A DNA stretch of 64,000 nt from Polycladidibacter stylochi. Lineage in GTDB: Bacteria; Pseudomonadota; Alphaproteobacteria; Rhizobiales; Stappiaceae. The position numbers and the translations under genes were made by a program. Each line of letters begins with the position of its first letter. Positions within the stretch are counted from its first letter, which is position 1. A model generated the notes under the pieces. It saw nothing but the letters and a program-made list of their open reading frames with translations. It made no database searches and was not told the origin of the DNA. This document shows, piece after piece, positions 14,616 through 43,592 of this stretch. The stretch spans positions 1-64,000 of the forward strand of contig NZ_LLWE01000041.1 in assembly GCF_001562055.1 (NCBI RefSeq), in the 5' to 3' direction.

Positions 14616-14758
14616 GTTCTTCCTAACCAACAACGCTGTGTAATCGTCATTCGCTTACTGTGTCTCTACGTTTTTGCTAGGCGGAGAAAAACTACAATGC
14701 TTGAGGGCTGAAGTGCGCCCACAAAGTGCTACTGTGGCCTCAATCAGGTTAAATTGGC
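14616..14758 (-). repeat. Fossil dispersed repeat, copy 3
   Basis: It contains GAAGTGCGCCCACAAAGTG followed by GGCCTCAATCAGGTTAAATTGG, matching copies 1 and 4. The minus-strand reading is YSQFNLIEATVALCGRTS. Apart from this and the upstream AT-rich promoter region of the dehydratase gene, nothing else is recognised in 14306-14782. Confidence 0.6.
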
Positions 14759-14782
14759 TATACAAACATTAAGATAATAAAC

Positions 14783-15208
14783 CTACAGCGCTCTGTAAGT
14801 TAAATACGAGACAACATTGCACGATTTACTGTTTGTACTATAAGCTTCTACCCACACTTCCCAATAGCTATACATTTTCATATGGAAGTTTTTTGCAAAA
14901 AAACTGTACTGATTTGCCTCGTATTTCTCCAGTAAATCACTTCTGTTTCTTGATTTTATACTTTCAACGAAGCCATTTTCTTTCAATATAACTGAGAATT
15001 TACCGTAATCATTCCCGCAGTAGCGAGAAATCATATTGGAAATATTTGTATGCTGTATTCCTGAGCGCTGCGCTTCTATGATTTTTGACCTTATGCTTGC
15101 ATCCAGACCGTTGGCTTTATTTCGTATGAAAGTAAAGTAAAATAGGCCAATAATGAATACAAGTATGCCTAGAATTAAAACAACGTATTTTGATTTTCGA
15201 TAATTCAT
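14783..15208 (-). CDS. Hypothetical membrane-anchored protein
   Basis: This 141-residue protein has one N-terminal membrane segment (YVVLILGILVFIIGLFYFTF) after a short basic lead, then a soluble domain with two Cys residues that would lie outside the cytoplasm. I do not recognise a family. It is AT-rich and stands alone between a fossil repeat and the hipBA locus, which suggests horizontal transfer. Confidence 0.55.
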   Translation of the reverse strand: MNYRKSKYVVLILGILVFIIGLFYFTFIRNKANGLDASIRSKIIEAQRSGIQHTNISNMISRYCGNDYGKFSVILKENGFVESIKSRNRSDLLEKYEANQYSFFAKNFHMKMYSYWEVWVEAYSTNSKSCNVVSYLTYRAL

Positions 15209-28916: not shown

Positions 28917-28997
28917 TAGAAATGATGGTTTTTAATCCACCAACATAAAACTAATCATGCACCGGTATTGTTCTATTTGTAGATGATAATAATGATG

Positions 28998-29026
28998 GGG
29001 CGAAAACAATTTGTTTTCGCCCTTTT
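28998..29026 (+). terminator. Terminator at the end of the metal-related operon
   Basis: GGGCGAAAAC-AATTT-GTTTTCGCCC followed by TTTT is a perfect 10-bp hairpin. It lies between convergent operons and could also serve the opposite strand. Confidence 0.85.
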
Positions 29027-29130: not shown

Positions 29131-30300
29131 TTAACGGTATGATTTTTGGGTAATTTCCAAAATATCCTGTTTGCTTAAGGTGTATTTATCCAGATCAATG
29201 CCCACAACATCGTAGGTAATGTCGGCAATACGCTGGCAGTCTTCATAGCTAATGCCATAATCGCTCATGGCAAGTTTGCGCATGCCGGTTTGGTCCATGA
29301 GTTCAATCAGAGCGTTAATAAAGCACTGCCCTTTATCACCTGCAACCGGGGTTGCACCCATCATGATGCCGATATCTTCCAGCAGTTGCGGGACAAACTC
29401 TTTAATCCGCTTGTAGTACTCTTCAGCGAGCACAATAAGCGTTGCGCCGTGTGCAAAGGTTGGCGCAATACCGCCAATAGTCTGACCGATAATGTGATGC
29501 GAAGTTACGGTACAAAGTGCCTGTGTGTAGCCACTCAAGATATTCGCCGCATAAGAAATATTAACACGGGCTTCCAAATTGTTCGGCTCGGCAATAACCA
29601 CCGGCAACCACTTGGCCACATGGCGGATAGAATCTTCTGCATACAGGTCAACCAAGCGGTTTTCACCACGGTTGGTGATGTAGCATTCCAGCGCGTGGAA
29701 CAAAGCATCGAAACCTTGGTATATTGTCAAAAGCTTTGGCAACGACAACATCAATTCAGGGTCGATGATAGAAATCGCCGGGAACAAGGCATCACAGGCA
29801 AAATCCAGCTTTTCTGCGGTATCTTCGTTGGTAATAACACAGAACGGGTCGGTTTCTGTGCCCGTACCAGCCGTGGTTGTAATGGTAACAATGGGCGCAG
29901 CTTTGGTTATTTCGCGCCGTCCACCCGTTCCGGTATAAGCATAATCCCAAAGATCGCCCGGATTAACCAGCATTGCAGCTGTTGCTTTTGCAGTATCTGT
30001 GGAGCTACCACCGCCAAGGCCAATGGTGAAATCGCAGCCATTATCCAGCGCCAGTTTAGCAGCGTTCATAACACCGGTGCGGGTTGGGTTTGGGCTGACT
30101 TCGTCGAAAACTACGGCTTCAACGCCATTTTCTTCCAGTAGCTTCAGCACACGGCCTTGAATGCCCAATTTTTCCATTAAGCCATCGCTGGTCACACAGA
30201 TAAGGGCTTTTTTACCAGGCAATTGTAGTTTGTTTAATTCATTAAGACGTCCAGCGCCGAAGATAACTCGAGTTGGAATATAACTATCGATATTGTACAT
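29131..30300 (-). CDS. Iron-containing alcohol dehydrogenase
   Basis: This group III alcohol dehydrogenase has the NAD-binding GLGGGSSTDTAKA and TTTAGTGTETDPF motifs, and iron ligands in GFDALFHALE and TSHHIIGQ with a later HG (TFAHGA). It would oxidise or reduce a short hydroxy- or oxo-acid or alcohol. ATG at 30300 with AAGGATC upstream is chosen over ATG 30315. It is the last gene of the aconitase X operon and probably handles a late intermediate. It is not closely similar to the second Fe-dehydrogenase at 43.6 kb. Confidence 0.88.
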   Translation of the reverse strand: MYNIDSYIPTRVIFGAGRLNELNKLQLPGKKALICVTSDGLMEKLGIQGRVLKLLEENGVEAVVFDEVSPNPTRTGVMNAAKLALDNGCDFTIGLGGGSSTDTAKATAAMLVNPGDLWDYAYTGTGGRREITKAAPIVTITTTAGTGTETDPFCVITNEDTAEKLDFACDALFPAISIIDPELMLSLPKLLTIYQGFDALFHALECYITNRGENRLVDLYAEDSIRHVAKWLPVVIAEPNNLEARVNISYAANILSGYTQALCTVTSHHIIGQTIGGIAPTFAHGATLIVLAEEYYKRIKEFVPQLLEDIGIMMGATPVAGDKGQCFINALIELMDQTGMRKLAMSDYGISYEDCQRIADITYDVVGIDLDKYTLSKQDILEITQKSYR

Positions 30301-30338
30301 GATCGATCCTTGCATGTTCTTTATTATTATGGGGGAGC

Positions 30339-30370
30339 GGCCAGTTTCCCAGGAGAATTAGAAACTGGCC
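30339..30370. repeat. Intercistronic hairpin before the Fe-dehydrogenase gene
   Basis: GGCCAGTTTC and GAAACTGGCC form a perfect 10-bp stem with a 12-base loop, between the small aconitase X subunit and the dehydrogenase. There is no U-run on the operon strand, so a processing or stability element is likely. Confidence 0.6.
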
Positions 30371-30414
30371 TGTTGAGCTTCGGCACTCAACCTGATCGCT
30401 TATTGTTGGCAGCT

Positions 30415-30831
30415 TTAGTTTGCGATCAGAACTTCTTTATCCTTAAAGATCTGTATGGTCTTATGACCTGAAAGTGAGGCGAAATCCTCTTCGCTCAGGT
30501 TAATCACCGGCAGCAGTTGATTGTAAAAGTGTTTCGCAATCAATGGCCCGGTTAAGATAACAGGATCAGTACGGATATTAATGATGCCGGCAGGTGCTGT
30601 ACCCACCCGCAGCATTTCCATCAGCACAAGACCGGCACCGCTTGAACCTTTCCCGAAAGGAAATGCAAATATTTTACCGGTGATTTGCTTTTTAAAGGCC
30701 GGGTGGCGGTAATCTTGTACGATACCGTCTTGAATACAAACACCACCAACGAAGCTAAATGGTTTATCGGCGTAAACCAATTCTGCTGTGATATCGTCAG
30801 AAATGACGTTTTTACAGTTTAATTCCACCAT
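30415..30831 (-). CDS. Aconitase X small subunit (swivel domain, DUF126)
   Basis: This 138-residue protein matches the DUF126 swivel domain of aconitase X, with the GKIFAFPFGKGSSGAG motif that contributes the active-site Ser. It works only with the large subunit encoded just upstream, whose 3' end it overlaps by 13 bp. Characterised bacterial aconitase X enzymes dehydrate cis-3-hydroxy-L-proline; archaeal ones act on mevalonate 5-phosphate. The substrate here is not fixed by sequence. Confidence 0.85.
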   Translation of the reverse strand: MVELNCKNVISDDITAELVYADKPFSFVGGVCIQDGIVQDYRHPAFKKQITGKIFAFPFGKGSSGAGLVLMEMLRVGTAPAGIINIRTDPVILTGPLIAKHFYNQLLPVINLSEEDFASLSGHKTIQIFKDKEVLIAN

Positions 30832-32084
30832 TTTTTCTTCGCCCTTACAACTTTACCAGCAATAGCTGTTTCAACACAGTCTTTATAGTTGCCAAATACT
30901 GGATGAATGCCAATTTTCGAGTAGCAATAGTTTGCAAATTTACCCGAGTTGGTCATGATTGACTTGGTGTCCCACTTGTCGATTGGGTATTCCATTGTAC
31001 AACCATCCAGAAATACTTTAACGCCCAGTGCTTTGATACGATCAAGCAAGCCACTATCTGTGGTGCTTTGCTGGGTGCAGCGGCTGGTGAATACCCAAAA
31101 CTCAGTGTCACTAGGCAGCTTGCGTCCGGCAAAAGCCTGTTCCAAAGCTTCAAATTCGGCATAGGAGAAGTGCGGGCAACCTATTGAAATCAGGTCCACT
31201 TTGCCTTCATGCTCGAAGTTACACAAATCCTGCTCGGCTTCACGGAGCATTTCTTTGGTAATGAGGACTTCTTTCTCCGGCTTACCCCCTTGGAAAGCCA
31301 TTTCCAAGGTGTGGGCTTCAGGTGTGAGGCCAATCAAGTGGAATAGGGCAATGCCACCAGAAGACGCAGCAGTAGAAGAAAACTGTTTCAAGTTATCAAG
31401 GGTAACATTGGTTGGCATACCCTCTAACGCCCAAATCTGATCACCGGCAATTTTACCATAAAGGTGCGAGATGAGGTTATAGATGTCATTATCCTCGAAC
31501 ATATCCGGGGTAATGTCATCGGCAAGACGCATAAGGCTTACAGCTTTACGGTTTTCTGTTTTGTGTAAGCCAAAGTATGGCACACGACCGGCGATACCTG
31601 CCAAAAGCTCCAGCGGGCCGGCATAACGGTTGGTACGCGCACCAATGATTGAATTCACATAATTGATAACGTTGGATTCCGCGCAGGCCACTTGTTGGCC
31701 AAAGCTTGGGGCAAAACCTGCCTGATAGGGGGCGCAGGTCCAGTTTGCAGCGGCACCCAGTTGCAGGTGTGAGGCTTCAATTCTGCGGGTTGCGGTCATC
31801 CAGGAACGGTCGTGGCGCTGTTCTTTCCACTTATTCATGTCCAGCGCGCAAGCATTGGTCGAGGTTGGGACGGCGAACTTGCCGCCAATGTCTACCAGGT
31901 GTTCGGTAAAAGCAACTTGCGCCTCGCCGAAGTAAACGGTGCTGTCATCGTGGCACGAAACAATTTCTACAAAGCGATCCACTTCATAATACTGTGCCAT
32001 ATCGTAGAGCACATTCATGGCCATGCGGCGGGCTTCGCCATGATCGCCTTGTAAAAGTGCTTTTTCATAGTCTGTTAAGTGCAT
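30819..32084 (-). CDS. Aconitase X large (catalytic) subunit, DUF521
   Basis: The 421-residue catalytic subunit shows the family motifs: TCAPYQAGFAPSFGQQVA, AESNVINYVNSIIGARTNR, SIGCPHFSYAEFE, FLDGCTMEYP and MTNSGKFANYC. The Cys residues in these motifs are the expected iron-sulfur ligands. With the small subunit it forms a dehydratase. An AGGAGG site precedes the ATG. The operon context (DapA-family enzyme, BCCT transporter, Fe-dehydrogenase) suggests breakdown of a hydroxylated amino or imino acid such as a hydroxyproline, which is inference. Confidence 0.88.
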   Translation of the reverse strand: MHLTDYEKALLQGDHGEARRMAMNVLYDMAQYYEVDRFVEIVSCHDDSTVYFGEAQVAFTEHLVDIGGKFAVPTSTNACALDMNKWKEQRHDRSWMTATRRIEASHLQLGAAANWTCAPYQAGFAPSFGQQVACAESNVINYVNSIIGARTNRYAGPLELLAGIAGRVPYFGLHKTENRKAVSLMRLADDITPDMFEDNDIYNLISHLYGKIAGDQIWALEGMPTNVTLDNLKQFSSTAASSGGIALFHLIGLTPEAHTLEMAFQGGKPEKEVLITKEMLREAEQDLCNFEHEGKVDLISIGCPHFSYAEFEALEQAFAGRKLPSDTEFWVFTSRCTQQSTTDSGLLDRIKALGVKVFLDGCTMEYPIDKWDTKSIMTNSGKFANYCYSKIGIHPVFGNYKDCVETAIAGKVVRAKKKWWN

Positions 32085-32097
32085 GTTGTCCTCCTGG

Positions 32098-32120
32098 GCG
32101 GCCTTCTTAAAGAAGGCCGC
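32098..32120. repeat. Intercistronic hairpin between BCCT and aconitase X genes
   Basis: GCGGCCTTC-TTAAA-GAAGGCCGC is a perfect 9-bp stem placed 14 bases after the transporter stop and just before the AGGAGG of the aconitase X large subunit. Confidence 0.6.
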
Positions 32121-32134
32121 TAAGATTTAGTCTG

Positions 32135-33709
32135 CTATTTGGCTTGGCTCGCATCAGAAGCGTTTTCTGATGCTGCAGAACCTGGCTCTTCCTTTGCAAC
32201 AAGCATACGAGCGGTCTTTACAGCAGAGACGCAAATAGCAAGCACGAGGAACATGAGCGGGAAACCGATGAGGGTGAACATACCGCGGATACCATCGATA
32301 CCACCTGTGGCGATAATGATGTAACCTACAGTACCAATTGCTGGACCCCAGATCAGTTTGAGATATTTCGGAGCTTCTTCATCAACACTGGAGCTTTTGC
32401 AGCTCAGTGTGGCCAAAACAGAAGTCATTGGGTCAGCATATGTTACCAGTGACGCAATAATGGCAATAATGAAGATAACCATGGTTACTTTGGCAAGTGG
32501 CAAGCTACCGAAAATAGCGAACACAGTAGAAGCCATACCGTTAGTCTGAATGTTTGCCCAGATATCCAGCGTACCTGTTGATTGCAGGTGAATTGCAGAA
32601 CCACCGAAGATCGCAATCCAAACAAAACAGAACAAGCTTGGGCCGAACAGTGTCATGGCAATGAATTCACGTACTGTACGTCCACGTCCCAAACGGGCAT
32701 AAAACAGACCAATCAAAGGAGCAACAACGAAGAAGGATGCCCAGAACTGTACTGTCCAGCCTTTTGCCCACTCGTCTGTTGTCATTGCATTGGTGATGGT
32801 TGCTTTATTGAAGAACTTGGTGAGGAAATCGCCAAAAGCAGTTACACCAATATCAGCAATGAAGATTGAAGGACCAAAGATAAGTACGAAGATGGCCAGA
32901 CCAATGAAGATTTTGGTGTTGGCATCAGCAATCATACTCAGGCCTTTTTTCATGCCTGAAATACTGGATGTTGTGAACACAACCGTGATGACAACCGCTG
33001 TAATCAGCCATACAAAATTGCCGGATTCAATACCGAAGACATTTTCCAGACCAGATGCGATGAGTAGCAAAGCACCACCTAAAGAACTGGCAACGGCACC
33101 ACCAAGAGTAAAGATACAAACAGCATTGATGATTGTACCAACAACACCCGAGTGCTTTTTGCCAAGCAGGCCATAAAGTGTTGTACTGACTGAGTAAGAT
33201 TCATCGCGGCTGTAAACAACCATGGCAACGGCCAATGCACAAATTGTGTACATAGAATATTGCATGATGGTCCAGTGGAATGCAGTCTGCGAAATTGCGG
33301 TAATGCCAGCTTCGCGGCTAAACGGTTCTACGTTCCAAGCTTGTGCTGGTTCAGCGAAGAAGAACATAGGTTCAGCTGATGCCCAGAACAGCAAACCGGT
33401 ACCGATGCCAGAGCAAAGGCAGATACTAAACCATTGCCAGAGTGATAAATCTGGTTTGGCGTCTTTACCACCAAGGCGGATATCACCGTATTTTGAGAAT
33501 AACAGGTAAATGATAGTAAAGAAGGCTATGAGACCGGAAATCATAAATAGCCAGCCGAAGCGTGCCGAAATCGTGTCCAAAACACCATTTAGGAAGCCGC
33601 CCATTTGGTCGGTAAACATAATACCGGCAAAAATGAATACTGCCATGCAGATAAATGCAGGCCAGAAAGACAACGGCTGAATACTCGTTTTGTCTTGCCC
33701 GTTTTTCAT
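32135..33709 (-). CDS. BCCT-family transporter with altered substrate box
   Basis: This betaine/choline/carnitine-type secondary transporter has about 12 helices, with GIGTGLLFWASAEPMFFF and LGRGRTVREFIAMTLFGP. The aromatic box that holds quaternary amines in BetP is only partly kept. Helix 4 reads FHWTIMQYSMY (BetP Trp194 position is Tyr). Helix 8 reads FWASFFVVAPLIG, so the Trp374 and Trp377 positions are Phe and Val. The substrate is therefore probably not a simple betaine. The start at 33709 has GGGAG upstream. It is the second gene of the operon, where import of the aconitase X pathway substrate is the natural guess. Confidence 0.87.
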   Translation of the reverse strand: MKNGQDKTSIQPLSFWPAFICMAVFIFAGIMFTDQMGGFLNGVLDTISARFGWLFMISGLIAFFTIIYLLFSKYGDIRLGGKDAKPDLSLWQWFSICLCSGIGTGLLFWASAEPMFFFAEPAQAWNVEPFSREAGITAISQTAFHWTIMQYSMYTICALAVAMVVYSRDESYSVSTTLYGLLGKKHSGVVGTIINAVCIFTLGGAVASSLGGALLLIASGLENVFGIESGNFVWLITAVVITVVFTTSSISGMKKGLSMIADANTKIFIGLAIFVLIFGPSIFIADIGVTAFGDFLTKFFNKATITNAMTTDEWAKGWTVQFWASFFVVAPLIGLFYARLGRGRTVREFIAMTLFGPSLFCFVWIAIFGGSAIHLQSTGTLDIWANIQTNGMASTVFAIFGSLPLAKVTMVIFIIAIIASLVTYADPMTSVLATLSCKSSSVDEEAPKYLKLIWGPAIGTVGYIIIATGGIDGIRGMFTLIGFPLMFLVLAICVSAVKTARMLVAKEEPGSAASENASDASQAK

Positions 33710-33938
33710 TGTATTTCTCCCGCGCCTCAAATGCTTTTGTTACCCGAATGAGGCTTTTATTTTAGGATTTACGTTGACGTTAAGTCGCGTCCTCCAAACA
33801 CATGGCACTTAACATCTAGGTCAGTAGTTATTTTGTTGTGGCAGTTTGTCTTGGAACAACAAAATATTGTGTGTTTCAATCAGTTATTGGAATCCGTAGT
33901 TTCCTCCTCTTAAAACCTCTGCCAAATGTTGGGGGAGT

Positions 33939-33960
33939 GGCTGATGGGGGAACATCAGCC
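33939..33960. repeat. Intercistronic hairpin between DapA-family and BCCT genes
   Basis: GGCTGATG-GGGGAA-CATCAGCC is a perfect 8-bp stem eight bases after the stop of the DapA-family gene. The 230 bp that follow to the transporter start hold no gene. Confidence 0.6.
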
Positions 33961-33968
33961 AGCATGAA

Positions 33969-34856
33969 TTAGCGTAAATCTACCGATGCAATAAGTTTCT
34001 CGATTGCCGCTTTTTCATCATTGGTTAAAGGTTGCCGCGGACTTCTGGCTGTACCGCCGGTTAAGCCCATTTTCTCTTGGAAATACTTGGTTGTTTGCAC
34101 AACTTTGCCAGCAGTTTCCAAGTAGCGAGCTACTGGTAGGTAGCCGTGATACAGCTTGCGGGCACCGTCCCAATCGCCTTTTTCAACGGCAGTTGTGAAA
34201 ATGTCGCGTGTCATATTTGGTGCGAAGTTGCCGCCCATGCAGACCCAGCCTTTGGCACCAGCTGCAAAAGACTCAAAGCACATATCTTCCCAACCACAAA
34301 ATACGGTGATTTTGTCGGAGAGCTCGGCCACAATTTGTGAAACCCGTTTCACGTCACCGGAAGATTCTTTGATGCACTCAACATTTGGCAAATCAGCGAT
34401 GCGTGCCAATGTGTCAACTTCAATATCCAGACCCGAGCTACCTGGATTGTTATAGACCATAATAGGCAGGCGCACGTTTTCGGCGACTTGCTTGTAATAG
34501 GCGTAGATTTCTTCTTGCTCAATACCGGAGCCTGGAGGCGATAACACCATAACGCCAGCGGCACCAAGATCGGCAACATGATTGGATAGCTCGATGGTTA
34601 AATCGGCGCGCGCTGTAATGGTGCCGACAATTACCGGCACTTTGCCAGCTACTTTTTCAAGCACAAATGCACTCAGTTCTTTGCGCTCTTTGTAGTCGAG
34701 AGTGAGATACTCACCCAATGCACCACACACCATAATGCCTTGAACATTCTGTTCGAGTAAGTGCTTCAGGTTACTTTCTACCCCGTCATAATTGATGGAG
34801 CCATCTGAGTGCATTGGTGTCGATAATACGACGAAAACACCTTGCAACTTGCTCAT
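33969..34856 (-). CDS. DapA-family (dihydrodipicolinate synthase/aldolase) enzyme
   Basis: This class I TIM-barrel lyase or deaminase has 295 residues. The Schiff-base Lys lies in VECIKESSGD near residue 163 and the catalytic Tyr in IMVYNNPGSSG near 135. Family members include dihydrodipicolinate synthase, N-acetylneuraminate lyase, keto-deoxy-sugar-acid aldolases and the pyrroline-4-hydroxy-2-carboxylate deaminase of hydroxyproline breakdown. It is the first gene of the aconitase X operon and divergent from an IclR gene, so a catabolic role is favoured over lysine synthesis. A sialate lyase role cannot be excluded. Confidence 0.82.
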   Translation of the reverse strand: MSKLQGVFVVLSTPMHSDGSINYDGVESNLKHLLEQNVQGIMVCGALGEYLTLDYKERKELSAFVLEKVAGKVPVIVGTITARADLTIELSNHVADLGAAGVMVLSPPGSGIEQEEIYAYYKQVAENVRLPIMVYNNPGSSGLDIEVDTLARIADLPNVECIKESSGDVKRVSQIVAELSDKITVFCGWEDMCFESFAAGAKGWVCMGGNFAPNMTRDIFTTAVEKGDWDGARKLYHGYLPVARYLETAGKVVQTTKYFQEKMGLTGGTARSPRQPLTNDEKAAIEKLIASVDLR

Positions 34857-34876: not shown

Positions 34877-34906
34877 GTTCCATATTGCAGAACCGTGTTC
34901 CATATT
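34877..34906. promoter_or_regulatory. Candidate IclR operator upstream of the aconitase X operon
   Basis: GTTCCATATT occurs at 34877-34886 and again at 34897-34906, 20 bp apart. The first box is part of a dyad GTTC-N9-GAAC. It lies between the divergent DapA-family and IclR genes. Position and spacing fit an IclR-type dimer-of-dimers site. Confidence 0.5.
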
Positions 34907-35078: not shown

Positions 35079-35852
35079 ATGACAGCAGATGATAATAAAA
35101 AAGCTACAAACGCAATGGGATCTGTAGTTAAAACATTTAATGTACTAGAGGCTCTATCCAATTACCAATCATGCGAGCTTACTTATATTGTTAAGAAGAC
35201 GGGATATCCGAAATCTACTGTTCATAGAATACTATTGACGCTGATAGAGCTTGGTTATGTCAAGCAGTTTTCAGAAACAAATAAATATGGTTGTACGTTC
35301 CGCATTTTGAACCTTGGTTCCAAAATAGTGGGAAAAAACACAATCGTTTTAGCCGCAAAAGCGATTCTGGAAGAAATGGAGACAATTACCAACGAGAACA
35401 TAAACCTCTGCCTGCCCGATGGAAATGTTTTGGTAATCGTTTCCAAGCGCGAAAGCAATTACTCGTTACGCCCTTCCCAGCCAATAGGTCAACGCTTACC
35501 ATTCCATGATTCTGCAAATGGCCGCGCCTATTTGGCGCACTGTAATCAGGAAATGCGCCGCGGAATCATCGAGCGTCTTTATAATGATGGCTCAATCTCG
35601 GATATTCTGAGTTTTGAAGATAGGCTGGCAAATATTCGCCGGGAGGGTGTTGCCCTGGAAATTGAAGAGCATATCAAAGGCGTGGGTTGTATTGCCTCGC
35701 CTTTGTTTGATCATACAGGTCGCGCTATTGGTACTTTGGGCATCGCGACTCCCACCGTACGCTTAAAAGAAGAAAAAATATCACAATTCCGCAGCCTGGT
35801 GATCACCAAGGCAAGAGAGCTCTCGAACCAGCTGGGTGCGGAATTATCTTAA
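35079..35852 (+). CDS. IclR-family transcriptional regulator
   Basis: The protein has an N-terminal winged helix (VVKTFNVLEALSNYQSCELTYIVKKTGYPKSTVHR in outline) and a C-terminal GAF-like effector domain (IASPLFDHTGRAIGTLGIATP). It is divergent from the DapA-aconitase X operon across a 220-bp promoter region with repeated GTTCCATATT boxes, and is its probable regulator. It converges with a second IclR gene 15 bp away. Confidence 0.87.
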   Translation: MTADDNKKATNAMGSVVKTFNVLEALSNYQSCELTYIVKKTGYPKSTVHRILLTLIELGYVKQFSETNKYGCTFRILNLGSKIVGKNTIVLAAKAILEEMETITNENINLCLPDGNVLVIVSKRESNYSLRPSQPIGQRLPFHDSANGRAYLAHCNQEMRRGIIERLYNDGSISDILSFEDRLANIRREGVALEIEEHIKGVGCIASPLFDHTGRAIGTLGIATPTVRLKEEKISQFRSLVITKARELSNQLGAELS

Positions 35853-35867
35853 TTAACTCTTCACTTC

Positions 35868-36674
35868 CTAACCATGGCCTAGAGAGCGGCTAATATTGCG
35901 AGCAGCATGGAGTAAGTGAGGGCATATTTCATCTTCAATGGTGCTTGGGTCGCCCTTACCCCATAGCATATTAACAACTATGGCAGCGGTGCAATCACCT
36001 TCAGATGTACAAATAGGTGCCGCGAAATTCAGCTCACCGGGAATGAACTCGTCCCTTTGAAGCGCGTAACCTGCAATTCTGGCTTCTTTGAGCTTTTCGA
36101 TGATGTCTTCAACATTCGTTGCTGTCTTCGGGGTTAGTTGCGGTCTCGGATTTTCATGCAATAGCTTTTGAACATCACTAATTGGCATTTGGGATAGAAT
36201 AGCACGTCCGCCCGAAGTACAAAAAGCGGGTTGGCGTTCTCCCATATAAGCGTTGGGATAATAGAACTCCCCCCTTTTCAAGCGAGCGATATAAACAATA
36301 TCGGCACTATCCAGCTCAACGAGAGCAACTGACCTGTTGAGCTTTTCACTCAGTTCAACAAGGTTTGGCATTGCTACACTAAGTAATGGATTTGCATTTA
36401 AGTAGTTGAAACCGAAACAAAGTGCACGCGGCGTCAATGAATATCGCCTGGTTTTAGAATCTTTTTTCAAGAAACCAAGTTCAAACAAAGTATTCACTAA
36501 GCGTTGTGCACCGCTTTTTTCTAGACCCGTGATTCGAGAAATATCAGTGATTCCTAAATCTCTACGCCTATTGCCGAAGCACTCAAGCACTTTAAGCCCC
36601 TTGGCAAGTGAGCCAACGAACATTGGTGAGGAGCTCAGATTTTTTTTCTCTTTTTTTTCAACGATATGTGACAT
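35868..36674 (-). CDS. IclR-family transcriptional regulator (second)
   Basis: A 268-residue IclR protein with an N-terminal HTH (LGITDISRITGLEKSGAQRLVNTLFELGFL in outline) and effector domain (GELNFAAPICTSEGDCTAAIVVNM). It is divergent from the polyamine-type ABC operon and is the likely regulator of that cluster. It is clearly diverged from the other IclR protein, so the pair is not a recent tandem duplication. Confidence 0.87.
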   Translation of the reverse strand: MSHIVEKKEKKNLSSSPMFVGSLAKGLKVLECFGNRRRDLGITDISRITGLEKSGAQRLVNTLFELGFLKKDSKTRRYSLTPRALCFGFNYLNANPLLSVAMPNLVELSEKLNRSVALVELDSADIVYIARLKRGEFYYPNAYMGERQPAFCTSGGRAILSQMPISDVQKLLHENPRPQLTPKTATNVEDIIEKLKEARIAGYALQRDEFIPGELNFAAPICTSEGDCTAAIVVNMLWGKGDPSTIEDEICPHLLHAARNISRSLGHG

Positions 36675-36687
36675 TTTTTAATTTTTT

Positions 36688-36707
36688 CCTGCTGTACAAC
36701 CAGTAGG
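36688..36707. promoter_or_regulatory. Dyad operator upstream of the ABC-amidase operon
   Basis: CCTGCTG-TACAAC-CAGTAGG is a near-perfect dyad (6 of 7 pairs) 14 bp upstream of the second IclR gene and 80 bp before the ABC binding-protein gene. It is a good candidate site for that IclR protein. Confidence 0.5.
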
Positions 36708-36789
36708 GGTTATTGACTAATAATGCAATACGAATAATGATATCTAATATCACATATTAAATATTACAACACAAGAGGGGAATTTTAAT

Positions 36790-37881
36790 ATGATTGATCA
36801 AAAGACACAACGTGGTTTAACACGACGTAGTATGCTCACACTTACCGGCGGTGCTGCTCTCGGTGCCTTGGCCGCGCCAAGTATATTGAGGGCTGAAACT
36901 AAAATTGGCGGCGAGTTATACTTGGAAACATTTGGCGGAAGTTATGCTGAAGCTGTTACCAACATTATTGTGAAGCCTTTTGAGGAGCGCTACGGCGTTA
37001 AGGTTCACATTTCGCAGTTTGGTAATAACGCTGAAGTACTTGCAAAACTACAAGCCGGGAATTCGCGGGTTGATGTTTCAACGCTAGGGGGGGGAGAAGT
37101 ATACCTAGCTGCGAAAAACAAAATTTTGCGACCGCTCAACTTGAGCAATATTCCCAATTTTGCGCAGCAACACGATAAGTTCCGCAAACCAAATTATGAA
37201 CTGGGCGATACGAATAACTTTAGTGCGGGTCTTGTTTGGGGTGACCGCGCAATTGCTTATAATTTTGATAGTATTGATGAAGCGCCCACATCTTGGGAAG
37301 CATTATGGGACCCGCGTTTTGCTGGCATCTCTTCTGCTTATTTGCCTTTCCCGGGTCCAATTGAAATTGGTGCGCTGGTTCTTGGCCAGGACATGAACAA
37401 CATTAGTGATCTTGATGCGATCGAGAAAAAACTGATGGAGCTAAAAGGCAACTTGCTCAAGTGGTGGAGCAGCGGTTCCGAGCTGACCCAACTGTTTGCT
37501 ATGGGTGAGGTCGCAATTTCCGACTTCTGGCGCGGCCGTGTGAACACAATGAAAGAGCAAGGTCTTCCAGTTGATTATGTTGTTCCGCAAGAAGGTGCTC
37601 CTTCGTGGGTAGACACCATGGTTGTTCCGAAAACCTGTCAAAACGTGCCTGCTGCAGAAGCTTTCATTAACACAATGCTTGACGCAGAAATTCAAAGGCA
37701 ATTTGTGCTTCATGGTATTAACTATGCGCCAAGTAACATTGAAACAAAGCTCACTGAGAATGAAAAAATTCGCTTGGGTGCATCTGAAAATATTTTCGAT
37801 ACCGCCATTTTCGCTGATGCTGCCTACGTTGCAAGCCAGGCCAATGATTGGAATTTGGTTCTAAACCGTTTGAAATCATAG
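36790..37881 (+). CDS. ABC transporter substrate-binding protein, polyamine type
   Basis: The PotD/AfuA-like periplasmic binding protein has a Tat-like signal (RRSMLTLTGGAALGALAAPS). The mature part has the type-II binding-protein pattern LYLETFGGSYAEAV, QAGNSRVDVSTLGGGE and SAGLVWGDRAIAYN. It would deliver an amine, amide or related solute to the permease pair encoded downstream. AGAGGGG precedes the ATG. A hairpin separates it from the other transporter genes. Confidence 0.87.
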   Translation: MIDQKTQRGLTRRSMLTLTGGAALGALAAPSILRAETKIGGELYLETFGGSYAEAVTNIIVKPFEERYGVKVHISQFGNNAEVLAKLQAGNSRVDVSTLGGGEVYLAAKNKILRPLNLSNIPNFAQQHDKFRKPNYELGDTNNFSAGLVWGDRAIAYNFDSIDEAPTSWEALWDPRFAGISSAYLPFPGPIEIGALVLGQDMNNISDLDAIEKKLMELKGNLLKWWSSGSELTQLFAMGEVAISDFWRGRVNTMKEQGLPVDYVVPQEGAPSWVDTMVVPKTCQNVPAAEAFINTMLDAEIQRQFVLHGINYAPSNIETKLTENEKIRLGASENIFDTAIFADAAYVASQANDWNLVLNRLKS

Positions 37882-37888
37882 GGGTTTA

Positions 37889-37938
37889 GAAAGCCGGTGA
37901 CTTACACCACCCCAACGGCCTAGTAGGTCGCCGGTTTC
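37889..37938 (+). repeat. Hairpin after the binding-protein gene
   Basis: GAAAGCCGGTGAC pairs with GTCGCCGGTTTC, with one bulge and a G-U pair, around a 25-base loop. It lies just after the stop of the binding-protein gene and probably limits read-through or protects the upstream mRNA. Confidence 0.55.
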
Positions 37939-37966
37939 TTACGTATTGGTCTAGCAGGAAATAAAA

Positions 37967-39052
37967 ATGACAAAATTTGACGTCGAACTGGATAATGTAT
38001 CCAAGCGTTTCGGTGAGTTCACTGCCGTCGACAATGTTAACTTCAAAATTAACAAGGGCGAATTCTTCTCCCTTCTAGGGCCGAGTGGTTGTGGCAAAAC
38101 AACACTCATGCGGATGATTTCTGGTTTCGAAGCACCTAGCGAGGGAACCATAAGAATCTCCGGAAAAGACGTGACCCACGATCGTCCATATGAGCGTCCT
38201 ACAAACCTTGTTTTTCAGCATTTGGCATTGTTTCCCCATCTAACAATTGCAGAAAACATTGCCTTTGGTCTCCGCCTGAAGAAACTGAGTAACGGCGAAA
38301 TTGACCGCCGTGTGGACGAGATGCTGGAGCTGGTGCGTCTACCAGGGCTTGGCAACCGTAAGATCTCCCAGCTTTCCGGTGGGCAAAAGCAGCGTATTGC
38401 CATTGCCCGCGCATTGGTAAACAGACCGGCTGTTCTATTGCTAGACGAGCCACTTGCAGCACTTGATCTTAAACTGCGTGAACAAATGCAGTTGGAATTG
38501 AAGCGCATTCAAAGTGAAATTGGTACCACTTTCATTTATGTAACCCATGACCAAAGCGAAGCGATTACCATGTCCGATGTAATCGCCGTAGTAAATAAGG
38601 GTAAGATTGAGCAGATGGCGGATGCAACCACCATCTATGAAAAACCCCAGTCTGCCTTCGTCGCCAACTTTATTGGTGAGACCAACCTGCTTGAGGGCGA
38701 AATTGCTTCAATCAACGGTGATGCAACTGTTGTTGTCGTTGAAGGCGTGCCAATCAAGGTAAAATCGGTAGCTGGTGCCCATGTTGGCCAAAAAGCTCAT
38801 GTTTCTGTACGCCCTGAGAAAATCATCTTCGATGCAATTGATGCCGATAGCTGCAACCACTTTGAAGCGGTAATTGATAACGCCATCTACATGGGTAACT
38901 ACACGCACTATCAAATGCATCTTGGCCAAGGCCTTAAGCTTGGAATTGATGTGCAAAACGCAACCCATTGCGAGCGCAAATCAATTGGCGAAAGCGTACA
39001 CATTGCTTGGTCTGCAGACCTTGGGGTTCTATTGCCTGGAGAAGTACAATGA
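37967..39052 (+). CDS. potA: ABC transporter ATP-binding protein (PotA-like)
   Basis: The 361-residue ATPase has Walker A GPSGCGKTTLM, signature LSGGQKQRIAIARAL, Walker B VLLLDEPLAALD and switch VTHDQ, followed by a TOBE regulatory domain from about residue 280. It is closest in layout to PotA-type importers of polyamines and related cations. Its stop overlaps the first permease start (ATGA). Confidence 0.9.
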   Translation: MTKFDVELDNVSKRFGEFTAVDNVNFKINKGEFFSLLGPSGCGKTTLMRMISGFEAPSEGTIRISGKDVTHDRPYERPTNLVFQHLALFPHLTIAENIAFGLRLKKLSNGEIDRRVDEMLELVRLPGLGNRKISQLSGGQKQRIAIARALVNRPAVLLLDEPLAALDLKLREQMQLELKRIQSEIGTTFIYVTHDQSEAITMSDVIAVVNKGKIEQMADATTIYEKPQSAFVANFIGETNLLEGEIASINGDATVVVVEGVPIKVKSVAGAHVGQKAHVSVRPEKIIFDAIDADSCNHFEAVIDNAIYMGNYTHYQMHLGQGLKLGIDVQNATHCERKSIGESVHIAWSADLGVLLPGEVQ

Positions 39053-39936
39053 GTGGTGCTATGCCCATGCGCCCTGAGTACAATTCAGAGGCGATACAGC
39101 TTCGCAAACGTATAGCGATGTTATTGAGCCCGGGCTTATTGTGGCTCTTAGTGTTCTTTGCGCTGCCAATGTTCTTTGTACTGCGTAGTAGTTTTGATAG
39201 TTTTGCCGGCGGCGTCATGACCTCCGATTTCACTTTGCAAAACTATGCGAGAATATTCACCGAACCCCTTTATATTCAAGTTTTGTTTAAAAGCTTGTTG
39301 ACGGGTTTGTTCGTGACTGTCTCGTGCCTGGTTATCGGCTATCCAGTGGCGCACTTAATTGCGCGAAGCACGGGCAAAAAACGTAATCTCCTGCTTATCG
39401 GCCTGGTGATCCCGTTTTGGACCAGTCTGGTTGTACGCACGTATGCATGGAAACTACTGCTGGGGACCAACGGTGTCGTGAACTATCACCTTATGCAATT
39501 GGGTATTATCGATACGCCATTGCGCATGCTATTCACAACAGGTGCTGTTGTTGTTGGCTTGGTTCATGTGTTTTTGCCATTTATGATCTTGCCGCTTTAT
39601 GCATCGATTGAAAAGCTTGATGCCAGTCTTGAAGAAGCCTCGCAGGACCTCGGTGCAAATGCTGTCCAGACCTTCTTCAAGGTAACACTCCCTCTCACGC
39701 TCCCCGGCGTTACCACCGGTTGTATGCTTGTTTTCATTATGACCGTTAGCTCATTCCTCACGCCGGATCTTTTGGGCGGAGCAGGAAATGCCATGATCTC
39801 AAACATCATTCAGTCTGAGTTTTTCGGCACCTTTAACTGGCCATTCGGTAGTGCACTTGCCATCAGCTTCTTGTTGTTCTCGTTACTTTTCGTAGCGGTC
39901 TACAACAAGTTTTTTAACCGCGAACAGAAAGGCTAG
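39049..39936 (+). CDS. potB: ABC transporter permease (PotB-like)
   Basis: An inner-membrane permease with six helices and the EAA loop EEASQDLGANAVQTFFKVTLPL near residue 200, which docks on the ATPase. The start at 39049 (MSGAMPMRPEYN) overlaps the ATPase stop by four bases; longer in-frame readings run into the ATPase gene in another frame and are rejected. Confidence 0.9.
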   Translation: MSGAMPMRPEYNSEAIQLRKRIAMLLSPGLLWLLVFFALPMFFVLRSSFDSFAGGVMTSDFTLQNYARIFTEPLYIQVLFKSLLTGLFVTVSCLVIGYPVAHLIARSTGKKRNLLLIGLVIPFWTSLVVRTYAWKLLLGTNGVVNYHLMQLGIIDTPLRMLFTTGAVVVGLVHVFLPFMILPLYASIEKLDASLEEASQDLGANAVQTFFKVTLPLTLPGVTTGCMLVFIMTVSSFLTPDLLGGAGNAMISNIIQSEFFGTFNWPFGSALAISFLLFSLLFVAVYNKFFNREQKG

Positions 39937-39939
39937 ACC

Positions 39940-40725
39940 ATGCTTGGACGCGTAACACAAAAAACCTGGTCAATGCTGGTTTACCTGTTCTTGTTTGCTC
40001 CTATTTTGGCAGTAACGTTGATGTCGTTTAATGCCTCTCGCTTTTCCAAATACCCGCCTACCGGGTATACACTGGATTGGTATGTAGATGCATTTGAAGA
40101 CCCGGCGATTGTACAGGCAATCTTGACCAGTGCCTTTATTGCAATTGTTGCTGCTAGTCTTGCAACCATTATTGGTACTTTGGCAGCGGTGGCGATTTCC
40201 CGCTATTCTTTCCGCCTACACGAGTTCTTTCGTGCCACATTCATGGCCCCGCTGATTATACCCGAGGTGGTGATTGCAGTGGCATTGTTAGCATTGTCTG
40301 CCAACTTGAACTTGCAAGGCGGCCTGCCAATTGTCATCGCCGGTCATGTTCTTATCGGCCTACCATTTGTGCTCACAGTTGTCTCGGCAAGGTTGCATGG
40401 TCTTGGTGTGGACGTCGAAGAAGCCGCAATGGACTTGGGTGCGAATGAGGTACAAACCTTTTTTAAGGTGACATTGCCTTTGGCAATGCCGGGCGTCATA
40501 GCAGGGCTTGTTCTTGCCTTTACGATCTCATTCGACAACTTCTTGGTTACCTACATGACAGCAGGTTCGGGAACCGTCACGATTCCGATCAAGATCTATT
40601 CGATGCTGCGTTTCGAGGTAAGCCCGAAAATCCACGCGGCTTCAACAATAGTGATCGCTCTGACTGTCGCTCTGATGCTGCTCTACCAGTTCTTCAGCAG
40701 GGAATCGGAAGAGAAAACCCATTAA
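39940..40725 (+). CDS. potC: ABC transporter permease (PotC-like)
   Basis: The second permease (261 residues, six helices) has the EAA loop EEAAMDLGANEVQTFFKVTLPL, very like that of its partner, and starts three bases after it. Together they form the heterodimeric channel of the importer. Confidence 0.9.
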   Translation: MLGRVTQKTWSMLVYLFLFAPILAVTLMSFNASRFSKYPPTGYTLDWYVDAFEDPAIVQAILTSAFIAIVAASLATIIGTLAAVAISRYSFRLHEFFRATFMAPLIIPEVVIAVALLALSANLNLQGGLPIVIAGHVLIGLPFVLTVVSARLHGLGVDVEEAAMDLGANEVQTFFKVTLPLAMPGVIAGLVLAFTISFDNFLVTYMTAGSGTVTIPIKIYSMLRFEVSPKIHAASTIVIALTVALMLLYQFFSRESEEKTH

Positions 40726-40767
40726 TAACGCCAATTGGCTTTCATAAATAATAATAGGAAAACAACC

Positions 40768-42204
40768 ATGAAGTTCCGCGAGTATGATCAGTGGGACGCG
40801 GTGGAGATGTCTGAGCTTGTGCACGCCAAGGCTATCAGCCCGACAGAGCTGTTAGAAAGTGCGATTGAGACAATTGAAACAAGAAACCCAGCTATCAACG
40901 CCGTAACTACTAAAACCTATGATGAAGCGAGAGCACAAATTGCCAAAGGACTTGGCGATGGCCCATTAGCCGGTGTGCCACTGCTTCTGAAAGATTTAGC
41001 TATTCAATATAAGGGTGTTGTTACATCTGCGGGTAGTCGCTTATGTGCAGATGCGGTTGCAGATCATCACAGCACGCTGACGCAAAGGTATATGCAAGCT
41101 GGCGCTGTTATTCTTGGAAAAAGCAATAGCCCCGAATTCGGGGTATCCGGCTCCACAGAGTCGGAGCTACTAGGCCCCTGCAAAAACCCATGGGATACGA
41201 GCCGCAGTGCAGGCGGCTCCAGCGGCGGGGCAGCCGCAGCAGTTGCTGCAAGGTTGACGCCGGTGGCCCATGCATCTGACGCCGGCGGCTCCATTCGTAA
41301 CCCCTCTTCGGTTTGCGGCGTCTTTGGCCTTAAAACCACGCGTGCCCGCACGCCGTTGGGCCCTCTCATCTCCGAAGGTAGTGGAGGCTTGTCCATTCAG
41401 CATGTGATCACAAGAAGTGTACGCGATAGCGCTGCGTTTCTAGATGCATCTGCCGGCCCCGCAACAGGTGATGCATATACGGCACCGGGTACAAATGGTT
41501 TTTTAAAGGCTCTTGCCTCGCCGCTCACGCGGAAACTACGTATCGCAGTGCATACCGAACCTTATCACAATGTTGCAATTGATCACTCTTGCATTGAGGC
41601 AGTGCAACAAACTGCCAAGCTTTGCGAGAGTCTGGGGCATATTGTTGAGGAGGGGCAGCCAGATATTAACGGCGATGAAGAAATGGCCGTCAATAGCGTT
41701 CTGTGGAGTGTAAATCTGGCCAATACGGCCAAGTCCTTGTTTGCGGCAAAAGGCATAGCGCCATCACCGCAGTACATGGAGAAAAACACTTGGAATATGG
41801 TCGAGTTAGGGCTCGCAACCAGTGGGACCGATTACATTCAGGCGGTTCAGAAAATGCACCGTACCAGCCGCAAGATAGCTGCCCTGTTTGAAACTTACGA
41901 CGTTGTATTGTCGCCAGTACTGTCCCGTCCTGCCTGGAAACTGGGAACCTATGAAGCAGGCTGCGATGATGTTGCAGCATATTTCCGAAGAATCTTCGAT
42001 CACTCTCCATTCTGCTGGCCCTACAACATGAGCGGTCAGCCGGCCATGTCTGTTCCAATGCACTGGAATGATGGTGGCTTACCGGTTGGTGTGCAGTTTG
42101 CCGGAAGATATGGCGATGAAAAAACTCTGCTGCTCTTGGCAGCTCAGCTGGAACAAGCACAGCCATGGGCCCATCGGGCACCAGACCTTGTTTTAAACTC
42201 CTAG
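40768..42204 (+). CDS. Amidase (amidase-signature family)
   Basis: The Ser-cisSer-Lys hydrolase shows the catalytic Lys in LLLKDLA near residue 74, the Gly/Ser-rich GGSSGGAAAAVAA near 149 and the nucleophile region ASDAGGSIRNPSSVCG. It hydrolyses an amide to acid and amine or ammonia. A TAGGA site supports the ATG at 40768. Placed after a polyamine-type importer and before an aldehyde dehydrogenase, it probably acts on the imported compound, for example an N-acyl amine or acid amide. GatA function is unlikely because no GatB/C genes are present. Confidence 0.88.
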   Translation: MKFREYDQWDAVEMSELVHAKAISPTELLESAIETIETRNPAINAVTTKTYDEARAQIAKGLGDGPLAGVPLLLKDLAIQYKGVVTSAGSRLCADAVADHHSTLTQRYMQAGAVILGKSNSPEFGVSGSTESELLGPCKNPWDTSRSAGGSSGGAAAAVAARLTPVAHASDAGGSIRNPSSVCGVFGLKTTRARTPLGPLISEGSGGLSIQHVITRSVRDSAAFLDASAGPATGDAYTAPGTNGFLKALASPLTRKLRIAVHTEPYHNVAIDHSCIEAVQQTAKLCESLGHIVEEGQPDINGDEEMAVNSVLWSVNLANTAKSLFAAKGIAPSPQYMEKNTWNMVELGLATSGTDYIQAVQKMHRTSRKIAALFETYDVVLSPVLSRPAWKLGTYEAGCDDVAAYFRRIFDHSPFCWPYNMSGQPAMSVPMHWNDGGLPVGVQFAGRYGDEKTLLLLAAQLEQAQPWAHRAPDLVLNS

Positions 42205-42213
42205 GACAATAAA

Positions 42214-43590
42214 ATGGTAGAAACACTTAAATGCATTTCTCCGATAGATCAGTCGGTGTGTGTGGAGAGAACATGCAGTAGCCTTGAAGATGCCCGCCAA
42301 GTTGTTAAAGCTGCACAAAAGGCCCAGATAGAATGGCAGGCGCGTACGCTTGAAGAGCGTATTTCGATGGTTCTAGCTGCTGTCGATAAACTTGCCGATT
42401 ACGATGATGAAATCGTCAAAGAACTTGCGGTTATGATGGGGCGTCCCGTGCGTTTTGGCGGCGAGTATGCCGGAGTTAAAAGCCGCTCTGTGTATATGGC
42501 AGGTATTGCAAAGGACGCGCTTGCGGATCAAATCATCGACTTGGACGATGGAGCAGACCGAAAAATCAAGCGTGTTCCTCTTGGTACATTGCTGGTAGTT
42601 GCCCCGTGGAACTATCCGTATCTCACGGCCATAAACACTATCGTGCCTGGCCTGATTGCCGGTAACACGGTTGTGCTCAAGCACGCTTCACAAACCTTGC
42701 TGGTTGGGGAACGGTTCCAACAAGCGTTTGATGCTGCCGGCATTCCCGCTGGTGTTTTCCAAAATGTTTTCCTTGATCATGATACCACTTCTACATTGAT
42801 TGCTGAGGGCGCATTTAACCTGGTCAACTTCACCGGTTCTGTTGGTGGCGGCCGGGCAATGGAAAAAGCAGCTGCAGGAACTTTCACCGCGATCGGCTTG
42901 GAACTCGGCGGTAAAGACCCGGGCTACATTACCCAAAATGCCGATTTGGATGCCGCTGTGGCGAGCTTGGTCGATGGCGCTATGTTCAACTCCGGTCAGT
43001 GTTGCTGTGGTATCGAGCGTATTTACGTGCACGAAAGCCGCTATGACGAAGCAGTTGAGAAAATTGTTGATCTGGTCAAGCAGTACCAGCTTGGAAATCC
43101 ACTTGATGAAGCCACCACTTTAGGGCCGATGGCACATGAACGCTTTGCGCATGAAGTGCGCGAACAAATAACTGATGCACTGGAAACGGGCGCAACCGCA
43201 CATATAGATACATTCCCCGAAGATGATGGCAAAACCTATTTGTCGCCTCAGGTATTGACAGATGTCACCCATGACATGCGGATCATGCAAGAAGAAAGCT
43301 TTGGTCCGGTGGTCGGCATCATGAAAGTCCGAGATGACCAGGAAGCCATTACGCTGATGAATGATAGCGAGTTTGGTCTTACCTGTTCTGTCTGGACCAA
43401 TGACATGAAACAGGCCGAGGCGATTGGCGACCAGCTGGAAACCGGGACTGTTCTTATCAACCGCGCAGATCATGTTGACCCTGCACTGTGCTGGACGGGC
43501 AGTAAAGATACCGGTCGCGGTGGCGCACTTTCTGCAATCGGTTTTCAAAACCTGACACGTCCAAAATCCTACTATCTAAAGAAAGTCTAA
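42214..43590 (+). CDS. Aldehyde dehydrogenase
   Basis: The NAD(P)-dependent ALDH has catalytic Cys in NSGQCCCGIERI near residue 262 and general-base Glu in LELGGKDPGY near 229. Its C-terminal NLTRPKSYYLKK resembles a small ALDH branch. It has 458 residues, shorter than most betaine-aldehyde types and near the Sad/YneI group. It would oxidise the aldehyde produced by the Fe-dehydrogenase encoded next to it or by an amine oxidase elsewhere. The gene starts ten bases after the amidase stop. Confidence 0.9.
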   Translation: MVETLKCISPIDQSVCVERTCSSLEDARQVVKAAQKAQIEWQARTLEERISMVLAAVDKLADYDDEIVKELAVMMGRPVRFGGEYAGVKSRSVYMAGIAKDALADQIIDLDDGADRKIKRVPLGTLLVVAPWNYPYLTAINTIVPGLIAGNTVVLKHASQTLLVGERFQQAFDAAGIPAGVFQNVFLDHDTTSTLIAEGAFNLVNFTGSVGGGRAMEKAAAGTFTAIGLELGGKDPGYITQNADLDAAVASLVDGAMFNSGQCCCGIERIYVHESRYDEAVEKIVDLVKQYQLGNPLDEATTLGPMAHERFAHEVREQITDALETGATAHIDTFPEDDGKTYLSPQVLTDVTHDMRIMQEESFGPVVGIMKVRDDQEAITLMNDSEFGLTCSVWTNDMKQAEAIGDQLETGTVLINRADHVDPALCWTGSKDTGRGGALSAIGFQNLTRPKSYYLKKV

Positions 43591-43592
43591 TA

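Follow-up and report, generated by a model that had tools for sequence, protein, structure and literature searches.

The operon and its regulator

The DNA analysed here, called the window below, is a stretch of 64,000 nucleotides from Polycladidibacter stylochi (contig NZ_LLWE01000041.1 of assembly GCF_001562055.1, positions 1 to 64,000), and the subject of this study is a putative catabolic operon at positions 29131-34856, where five intact frames lie on the minus strand. In operon order, these code for a DapA/DHDPS-family lyase of 295 amino acids, proposed to be a HypD-like deaminase (DapA; 33969-34856; PF00701, 195.4 bits), a BCCT-family importer (32135-33709; PF02028, 421.1 bits), the large subunit of an aconitase X (AcnX) of 421 amino acids (AcnXL; 30819-32084; PF04412, 392.2 bits), its small, or swivel, subunit of 138 amino acids (AcnXs; 30415-30831; PF01989 (AcnX_swivel_put), 70 bits) and a member of the Fe-containing alcohol dehydrogenase family (Fe-ADH; 29131-30300; PF00465, 158.8 bits). 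A divergent regulator gene of the IclR family (257 amino acids; 35079-35852, plus strand; PF01614 (IclR_C), 109.6 bits, and PF09339) falls outside the range 29131-34856. All five operon proteins exceeded the curated Pfam cut-offs of their families, and none of the six proteins reached the cut-off of an NCBIfam model. With intact frames and these Pfam matches, the gene set named in a preliminary description of this DNA, the five genes plus the divergent regulator, was confirmed.

AcnXL and AcnXs overlap by 13 bases and the remaining gaps measure 50, 114 and 259 bases, if the starts that we prefer are used: the BCCT gene probably begins at the ATG at 33709 rather than at the listed TTG at 33730, and the Fe-ADH gene probably at the ATG at 30300 rather than at the listed 30315, since the respective genes of Pseudovibrio flavus align from there. 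The gap between the IclR and DapA genes contains a candidate operator, the imperfect palindrome GTTCCATATTGCAGAAC (34877-34893, plus strand), with a second half copy at 34897-34906; the candidate IclR site at this operator is GTTCCATATTGYRGAAC. The operator recurs with 1 mismatch in the corresponding gap of P. flavus, and the chance figure for this recurrence is not independent because the pattern was picked after both sequences had been viewed. On the 3' side of the operon, a weak terminator-like hairpin can be read on both strands (28997-29023), in a region with 8 terminator-like sites found versus 8.8 expected by chance. In GC content the module (0.459) is on a par with the window (0.461), and composition therefore gives no mark of foreign origin.

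Recurrence in other genomes

Searches with AcnXL were run on genome sets that overlap, and the window's own genome is counted in the class, order, phylum and own-family sets. Matches were obtained in 40 of 385 genomes of the class and 35 of 150 of the order (E<=1e-3), in 19 of 398 of the phylum and 4 of 87 of the window's family (E<=1e-60), as well as in 1 of 121 genomes of the family of genome G817 (E<=1e-60) and 1 of 369 of its class (E<=1e-100). Besides the window's genome, the matches listed in the class, order, phylum and family searches include only two with an identity above 60%, namely G1002 (87%), two stretches of which are identical to the P. flavus locus L059, and G817, taken to be Vibrio rhodolitus (64%). 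A scan of named genomes added an uncultured Eubacteriales bacterium (locus L060; AcnXL 67%) and Butyricicoccus faecihominis (L061; 65%); it used a two-sequence alignment and two 7-residue patterns only and gave 29 stretches with 4 relatives, so that more members may exist. A first scan of the contigs of named genomes with a single AcnX protein gave no match, and among 160 plasmid records no close AcnX was found, all being under 60%. The same AcnX subfamily is hence represented in four other genomes, those of P. flavus, V. rhodolitus, the uncultured Eubacteriales bacterium and Butyricicoccus.

By tblastn, the P. flavus locus is similar to the window in all six genes (IclR 59%, DapA 71%, BCCT 75%, AcnX 87/75% and Fe-ADH 77%). 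The V. rhodolitus loci (L057/L062) match in BCCT (61%), AcnX (64/59%) and DapA (40%), and L060 in BCCT (40%), DapA (39%), AcnX (67/68%) and Fe-ADH (59%). No tblastn match to Fe-ADH was obtained in L057 or L061. From IclR to Fe-ADH, the block is collinear in P. flavus, and the blastn similarity between the window and L059 is confined to it (6641-13033 of L059), while gene order and neighbouring regulators (IclR, LysR, GntR) vary among the loci. Given this collinear block and the joint recurrence of BCCT, AcnX and DapA in V. rhodolitus and L060, the gene set is more than a chance neighbourhood. The earlier description of the operon as an import-and-degrade unit is supported. Because the similarity is limited to the block, the block lies at different places in the window and in L059; together with its presence in 2 of 16 genomes of the same genus, the window's own included, this suggests horizontal spread.

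The aconitase X subfamily

AcnXL scored 308.7 bits against the NCBIfam model for cis-3-hydroxyproline dehydratase, the cut-off of which is 700. In a tree of 46 large subunits, a sample that contains no characterised Type IIa sequence, the five members of the set form one branch (100/100), which is sister (97/94) to a branch of 31 rows holding Type I and a large two-subunit group. The stem of the five-member branch measures 1.15 changes per column, and the tree tool warned of unusual composition in 4 of its 5 members. The hallmarks of the superfamily are all present, i.e. AcnX and swivel domains, the catalytic Ser, Lys and Tyr and the cluster Cys. All five members keep the residues aligned with Ser70, Asp203, Asn233, Cys273, Glu292, Ser293, Asn294, Lys530 and Tyr534, and in all five Trp35, Cys71, Thr72 and Ile206 are changed to Val, Ser, Gly and Val, so that among positions 35, 72, 203 and 206, which read Val, Gly, Asp and Val, Asp203 alone is retained. 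Residues of the large subunit were compared with 9 Type I rows, all of which have Ile where the set has Val at position 206; those of the small subunit were compared with 1 Type I row, from which the set differs at Trp35 and Thr72, and with 20 two-subunit rows, from 19 of which it differs at Trp35. At position 449 the set has Cys, and a single Cys stands where Type I shows Cys-X-Cys, although the register there is uncertain.

According to PMC8184944, Asp203, the residue that binds the amine of cis-3-hydroxyproline, gives way to Ala in the archaeal mevalonate enzyme; Trp35 and Ile206 contact C4-C5 of the ring and are offered as the cause of the poor use of 2,3-cis-3,4-cis-dihydroxyproline. Since these two residues contact C4-C5, the smaller ones of the set could admit a 4-hydroxyl group. 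That paper leaves AcnX subclasses IIc to IIf without a function, since landmark residues are absent. Judged by the kept and changed residues and by the placement in the tree, the set is a separate subfamily beside the cis-3-hydroxyproline dehydratases, and its substrate is probably still an alpha-amino acid, held in a pocket with more room near C4.

Elsewhere in the family, the 31-row branch retains Asp203 save in L069 (Gly) and L018 (Asn); the AcnX pair of L069 (3466-5105) also has Cys at Trp35, an isolated change within this Type I-holding branch. The AcnX of L025, L026, L027, L028, L030 and L031 show HMxxD or HIMGD around position 203, Asp for Glu292, Ala at 449 and Ile for Tyr534. Several AcnX matches were flagged as containing one TGA, and selenocysteine was considered; among the 4 loci checked, the stretch that aligns contains a stop only in L027, close to the C-terminus at query residue 415, and none in L025, L026 and L036, so that these loci give no evidence for selenocysteine.

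The DapA-family enzyme

The DapA proteins of the window, L059, L057 and L060 form one clade (88/89), and DapA accompanies this AcnX in 4 of the 5 genomes. As the four form a single clade, DapA and AcnX have probably been passed on together. The plasmid collection contains 1727 records that match the window DapA, and neighbourhoods were taken from 20 listed rows. Aldehyde dehydrogenase and FAD oxidase genes occur in the DapA cluster of 15 of these rows, annotated in ten (H33, H34, H36, H37, H38, H42, H43, H44, H45 and H47, with the oxidase annotated as FAD oxidoreductase) and found by tblastn in five (H39, H40, H46, H48 and H49; in H40 at a distance of 3-6 kb), but the rows come mostly from rhizobia and include many near-copies and are thus not 20 independent cases. 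H41 carries proline racemase and ornithine-cyclodeaminase-family genes; H50 carries no annotation and was left out of the pattern count. This pattern with an oxidase and an aldehyde dehydrogenase is that of 4-hydroxyproline catabolism, where a DHDPS member deaminates 4-hydroxy-pyrroline-2-carboxylate, as described in PMC4113996.

The window DapA scored 151-193 bits against 11 of 12 DapA proteins from hydroxyproline-type clusters and 83-124 bits against E. coli DapA, NanA, YagE and YjhH (124 for YagE, 119 for YjhH), in a comparison that is biased because 9 of the 12 cluster rows were chosen as best matches of the window DapA. Against the model for true DapA it reached 184.1 bits and thus stays under the cut-off of 206.15; it reads GALGE instead of GTTGE and has Ser for the Arg of YNVPGRTG, and so lacks the GTTGE motif and the Arg138 of true DapA. 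Lys163, Tyr135 and GALGE are present, which we take to be the Schiff-base Lys, the Tyr and the GxxGE motif; these are common to the superfamily and therefore not diagnostic of HypD. Among the best 60 of 147 matches in a search of PDB sequences with the window DapA, none is a chain that bears the name hydroxyproline deaminase.

In a genome of the same order (G784), locus L079 (5338-9015) holds a DapA (31%) with a different AcnX pair and an adjacent proline-racemase-family gene; this DapA forms a group (100/99) with the DapA proteins from two Lhp-type clusters. The AcnX of L079 keeps Trp at position 35, and its specificity therefore probably differs from that of the window AcnX.

Racemase and reductase genes in the host and its relatives

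The preliminary description had noticed neither a proline racemase or hydroxyproline epimerase nor a pyrroline-2-carboxylate reductase. A scan of the whole genome of P. stylochi agrees with both statements: PF05544, the proline-racemase family, has no match, the single PF02423 gene scores as ornithine cyclodeaminase (541.6 bits against a cut-off of 350), and the two Ldh_2 genes, one of which is nearest to ureidoglycolate dehydrogenase (338.5 bits, cut-off 356) and the other unassigned, both fail to match a model with the name pyrroline-2-carboxylate reductase. A reductase was thus not seen, although one may still be encoded. Genes of these families are found in two of the relatives. L060 has a PF05544 gene between AcnX and Fe-ADH, the best model of which is trans-3-hydroxyproline dehydratase (t3HypD; 301.7 bits, cut-off 550), ahead of proline racemase (285.0) and 4-hydroxyproline epimerase (236.7), both likewise under their cut-offs. 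Of the two catalytic positions of its protein, the first is occupied by Ser and the second by Cys. L061 has a PF02423 gene; among its solved relatives a delta1-pyrroline-2-carboxylate reductase ranks first (E 1.4e-42), with an alanine dehydrogenase near level (3.5e-42), and its NCBIfam scores are all under cut-off, with 258.5 bits for the general family, 208.3 for pyrroline/piperideine-2-carboxylate reductase and 203.7 for alanine dehydrogenase. Judged by these family assignments, the neighbour genes of L060 and L061 would fit 3-hydroxyproline chemistry, short of proof.

At L061, a possible remnant (11682-12142) of a gene resembling those of sodium/alanine symporters lies between AcnX and the PF02423 gene, and at L060 an EutH-like gene (14563-14988; PF04346), apparently cut at the contig end, follows Fe-ADH.

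Importer and dehydrogenase

The BCCT importers of the three related loci are 40-75% identical to that of the window. Among solved sequences, DddT and a trimethylamine transporter come nearest; against the betaine model the window protein reached 359.3 bits (cut-off 650) and it does not have the marks of a betaine carrier. Where DddT and 8zw8 have the tryptophan-rich motif WAWW, three of the four members of the set read WAS and one reads FAS. Fe-ADH is present in 3 of the 5 loci. Its best solved relatives are alcohol dehydrogenases, which say little on the substrate, and the two plasmid neighbourhoods of Fe-ADH relatives that were inspected held no clue to a pathway.

A possible route for 3,4-dihydroxyproline and its alternatives

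From what can be observed directly, i.e. the gene set and its recurrence, the grouping of AcnX and DapA, the residue changes and the neighbourhoods of the relatives, we infer a substrate with its stereochemistry, the single reactions, the role of the regulator and the direction of the last step. Our preferred reading, to which we assign a probability of roughly 45%, is that the operon imports and degrades a 3,4-dihydroxyproline or a similar 3,4-dihydroxy amino acid of proline-like build. The zwitterion would be imported by BCCT, and the AcnX pair would dehydrate the 2,3-cis isomer across C2-C3 to 4-hydroxy-delta1-pyrroline-2-carboxylate. From this, DapA, acting as a HypD-like Schiff-base lyase, would remove water and ammonia to give 2-oxoglutarate semialdehyde. 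In what is the weakest link, Fe-ADH would reduce this semialdehyde or act on a related aldehyde/alcohol pair, and the operon may be switched by IclR.

There is a precedent in LhpI of Pseudomonas aeruginosa, which, according to PMC5144071, turns over 2,3-cis-3,4-cis-dihydroxy-L-proline about 300-fold slower than cis-3-hydroxyproline, with a product deduced via reductase coupling to be delta1-pyrroline-4S-hydroxy-2-carboxylate. Compounds like this product are consumed by DHDPS-family deaminases of 4-hydroxyproline pathways, according to PMC4113996. Because of this precedent, and since such a product would suit a DapA of the HypD kind, 3,4-dihydroxyproline is the simplest substrate that uses both AcnX and DapA. 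A hydroxylated amino or imino acid, which the preliminary description had named as a possible substrate, appears likely. The same description had held that the standard hydroxyproline routes fit poorly; on the evidence of the t3HypD-like gene of L060, the reductase-family gene of L061 and the plasmid pattern (15 of 20), hydroxyproline chemistry fits better than that. V. rhodolitus is reported from rhodoliths and Pseudovibrio from marine sponges. The diatom 3,4-dihydroxyproline isomer described first is 2,3-cis. 3,4-Dihydroxyproline is present in diatom cell walls, as stated in PMC5501833 and PMC4557024.

Besides the make-up of the plasmid sample and the choice of rows for the DapA comparison, a number of observations weigh against this assignment. 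L061 matches the window in AcnX only (65/63%), without DapA, BCCT or Fe-ADH. Fe-ADH is not in every locus, and clusters of the 4-hydroxyproline type use an aldehyde dehydrogenase instead. The regulator is most like KdgR (158.8 bits, cut-off 275; BhcR 145.8), which hints at a sugar acid. Four of the 20 plasmid rows lack the pattern, H31, H32 and H35 having only a distant FAD oxidase and an ABC ATPase, and a proline-racemase-family gene occurs in only four (H33, H36, H41 and H47). The DapA of L057 scores 116 bits with that of H34, under YagE (122) and YjhH (119), and the DapA of L060 scores 128 with H41 versus 127 with YjhH and, at 211.1 bits, lies above the 206.15 required by the model for true DapA. 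Of all references, HypD of Sinorhizobium meliloti, on a long branch, scored lowest with the window DapA (64.7 bits); the deeper branches of the DapA tree are weak, and grouping the hydroxyproline-cluster rows needs 3 changes. Finally, we know of no member of this AcnX subfamily that has been assayed.

Four other explanations compete with this reading. If the operon served plain cis-3-hydroxy-L-proline catabolism, AcnX would form delta1-pyrroline-2-carboxylate, an unlinked reductase would convert it to proline, and DapA and Fe-ADH would serve otherwise. The sister position of the set to the branch with the C3LHyp dehydratases, the kept Asp203, the pairing of the same AcnX with a pyrroline-2-carboxylate reductase-family gene in L061 and a host Ldh_2 gene without a match to any specific model agree with such a route, but it is unlikely, given that the pocket residues at Ile206, Trp35 and Thr72 differ from the Type I rows compared, that the window holds no linked reductase and that a DapA of one clade, without a known role in this route, goes with this AcnX in 4 of 5 genomes. 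With an acyclic substrate of the 2-amino-3,4-dihydroxy acid type, for instance D-glucosaminate, every gene, Fe-ADH included, would find a use: AcnX, with Asp203 possibly binding the amine, would eliminate the 3-hydroxyl group, ammonia would be lost to leave a 2-keto-3-deoxy acid, DapA would cleave this as a class I aldolase to pyruvate and an aldehyde, and Fe-ADH would reduce the aldehyde. The likeness of the regulator to KdgR points the same way, as do the 2-keto-3-deoxy-acid aldolases within the DapA family (YagE) and their near-level scores with the DapA of L057 and L060. That the window DapA is closer to 11 of the 12 hydroxyproline-cluster proteins than to YagE or YjhH, that the proline-racemase-family gene of L060 and the PF02423 gene of L061 point to ring imino acids and that L-serine, according to PMC5144071, is not dehydrated by LhpI speak against an acyclic substrate, which we likewise consider improbable.

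Another 3-hydroxy ring imino acid or natural product, e.g. hydroxypipecolate, would also suit the altered AcnX pocket, which by itself is silent on what fills it; a HypD-like DapA, however, would need a hydroxyl group on the next carbon as well, so that fewer compounds qualify, and we hold such a substrate to be rather doubtful. The BCCT family is best known for betaines, and a betaine-like solute had been entertained in the preliminary description. Import of, e.g., hydroxyproline betaine and its subsequent degradation would accord with DddT and the trimethylamine transporter as nearest solved relatives and with the many DapA relatives that adjoin glycine-betaine/proline ABC transporters. A betaine is nevertheless less likely than was thought then, because all four BCCT proteins of the set lack a portion of the tryptophan motif seen in the two carriers used for comparison; moreover, Pfam finds no demethylase among the five operon genes and AcnX retains the Asp that binds the ring NH, so that we regard a betaine as very improbable.

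Returning to 3,4-dihydroxyproline, it is a real possibility, held slightly less likely than the reading preferred above, that a dedicated pathway joins two known hydroxyproline routes, with a new AcnX subfamily of enlarged pocket as entry at the 3-hydroxyl and a HypD-like DapA as exit via the 4-hydroxyl group, that it was transferred horizontally between marine Proteobacteria and Clostridia, and that the t3HypD-like enzyme of L060 takes the 2,3-trans isomers. If this were true, the slow side reaction of a known AcnX would be the main reaction of another, and there would be a way to break down an amino acid that occurs in diatom cell-wall proteins. For an AcnX subfamily still uncharacterised, and either inside or outside subclasses IIc to IIf, the operon provides a concrete and testable substrate. 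The component families are known, and their combination and the AcnX subfamily look new; the titles and abstract openings of the literature surveyed contain no account of this operon or of a route for dihydroxyproline degradation.

Comparison with known systems

The window AcnX has its domains and the nine aligned residues from Ser70 to Tyr534 in common with the Type I cis-3-hydroxyproline dehydratases, but differs from them in the four substituted positions, Cys at 449, the one Cys for Cys-X-Cys, its separate branch and its two subunits, the latter as in Type IIa according to PMC8184944. Two subunits are shared with the archaeal mevalonate 5-phosphate dehydratase (Type IIb), as is Cys at 449, a position that by the same source provides a ligand for the archaeal [Fe-S] cluster; unlike this enzyme, which has Ala there, the set keeps Asp203 (5/5), and it is well separated from it in the tree. 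The trans-4-hydroxy-L-proline pathway proceeds via an epimerase, a D-hydroxyproline oxidase, the Pyr4H2C deaminase of the DHDPS family and 2-oxoglutarate semialdehyde dehydrogenase. The route proposed here would share with it a DHDPS-family enzyme acting on a 4-hydroxy-pyrroline, but would be entered via dehydration by AcnX and has Fe-ADH in place of the aldehyde dehydrogenase as well as a BCCT importer. With the trans-3-hydroxy-L-proline pathway (t3HypD plus delta1-pyrroline-2-carboxylate reductase), it would share the dehydration of a 3-hydroxyproline, and the respective gene types occur in L060 and L061; in contrast to that pathway, the window operon is without a reductase and has DapA and Fe-ADH.

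The adjacent unit

Next to the operon, at 35868-44738 of the window, a second IclR gene stands beside an ABC importer with a polyamine-type binding protein, and further frames read, by their sequences, like an amidase, an aldehyde dehydrogenase and another Fe-ADH. The part with the ABC importer, the aldehyde dehydrogenase and this Fe-ADH (36790-44738) was weighed as a possible further section of the pathway and rejected, as tblastn found no such aldehyde dehydrogenase in L059, L060, L061 or L057. The unit is possibly a distinct operon for amide or polyamine catabolism.

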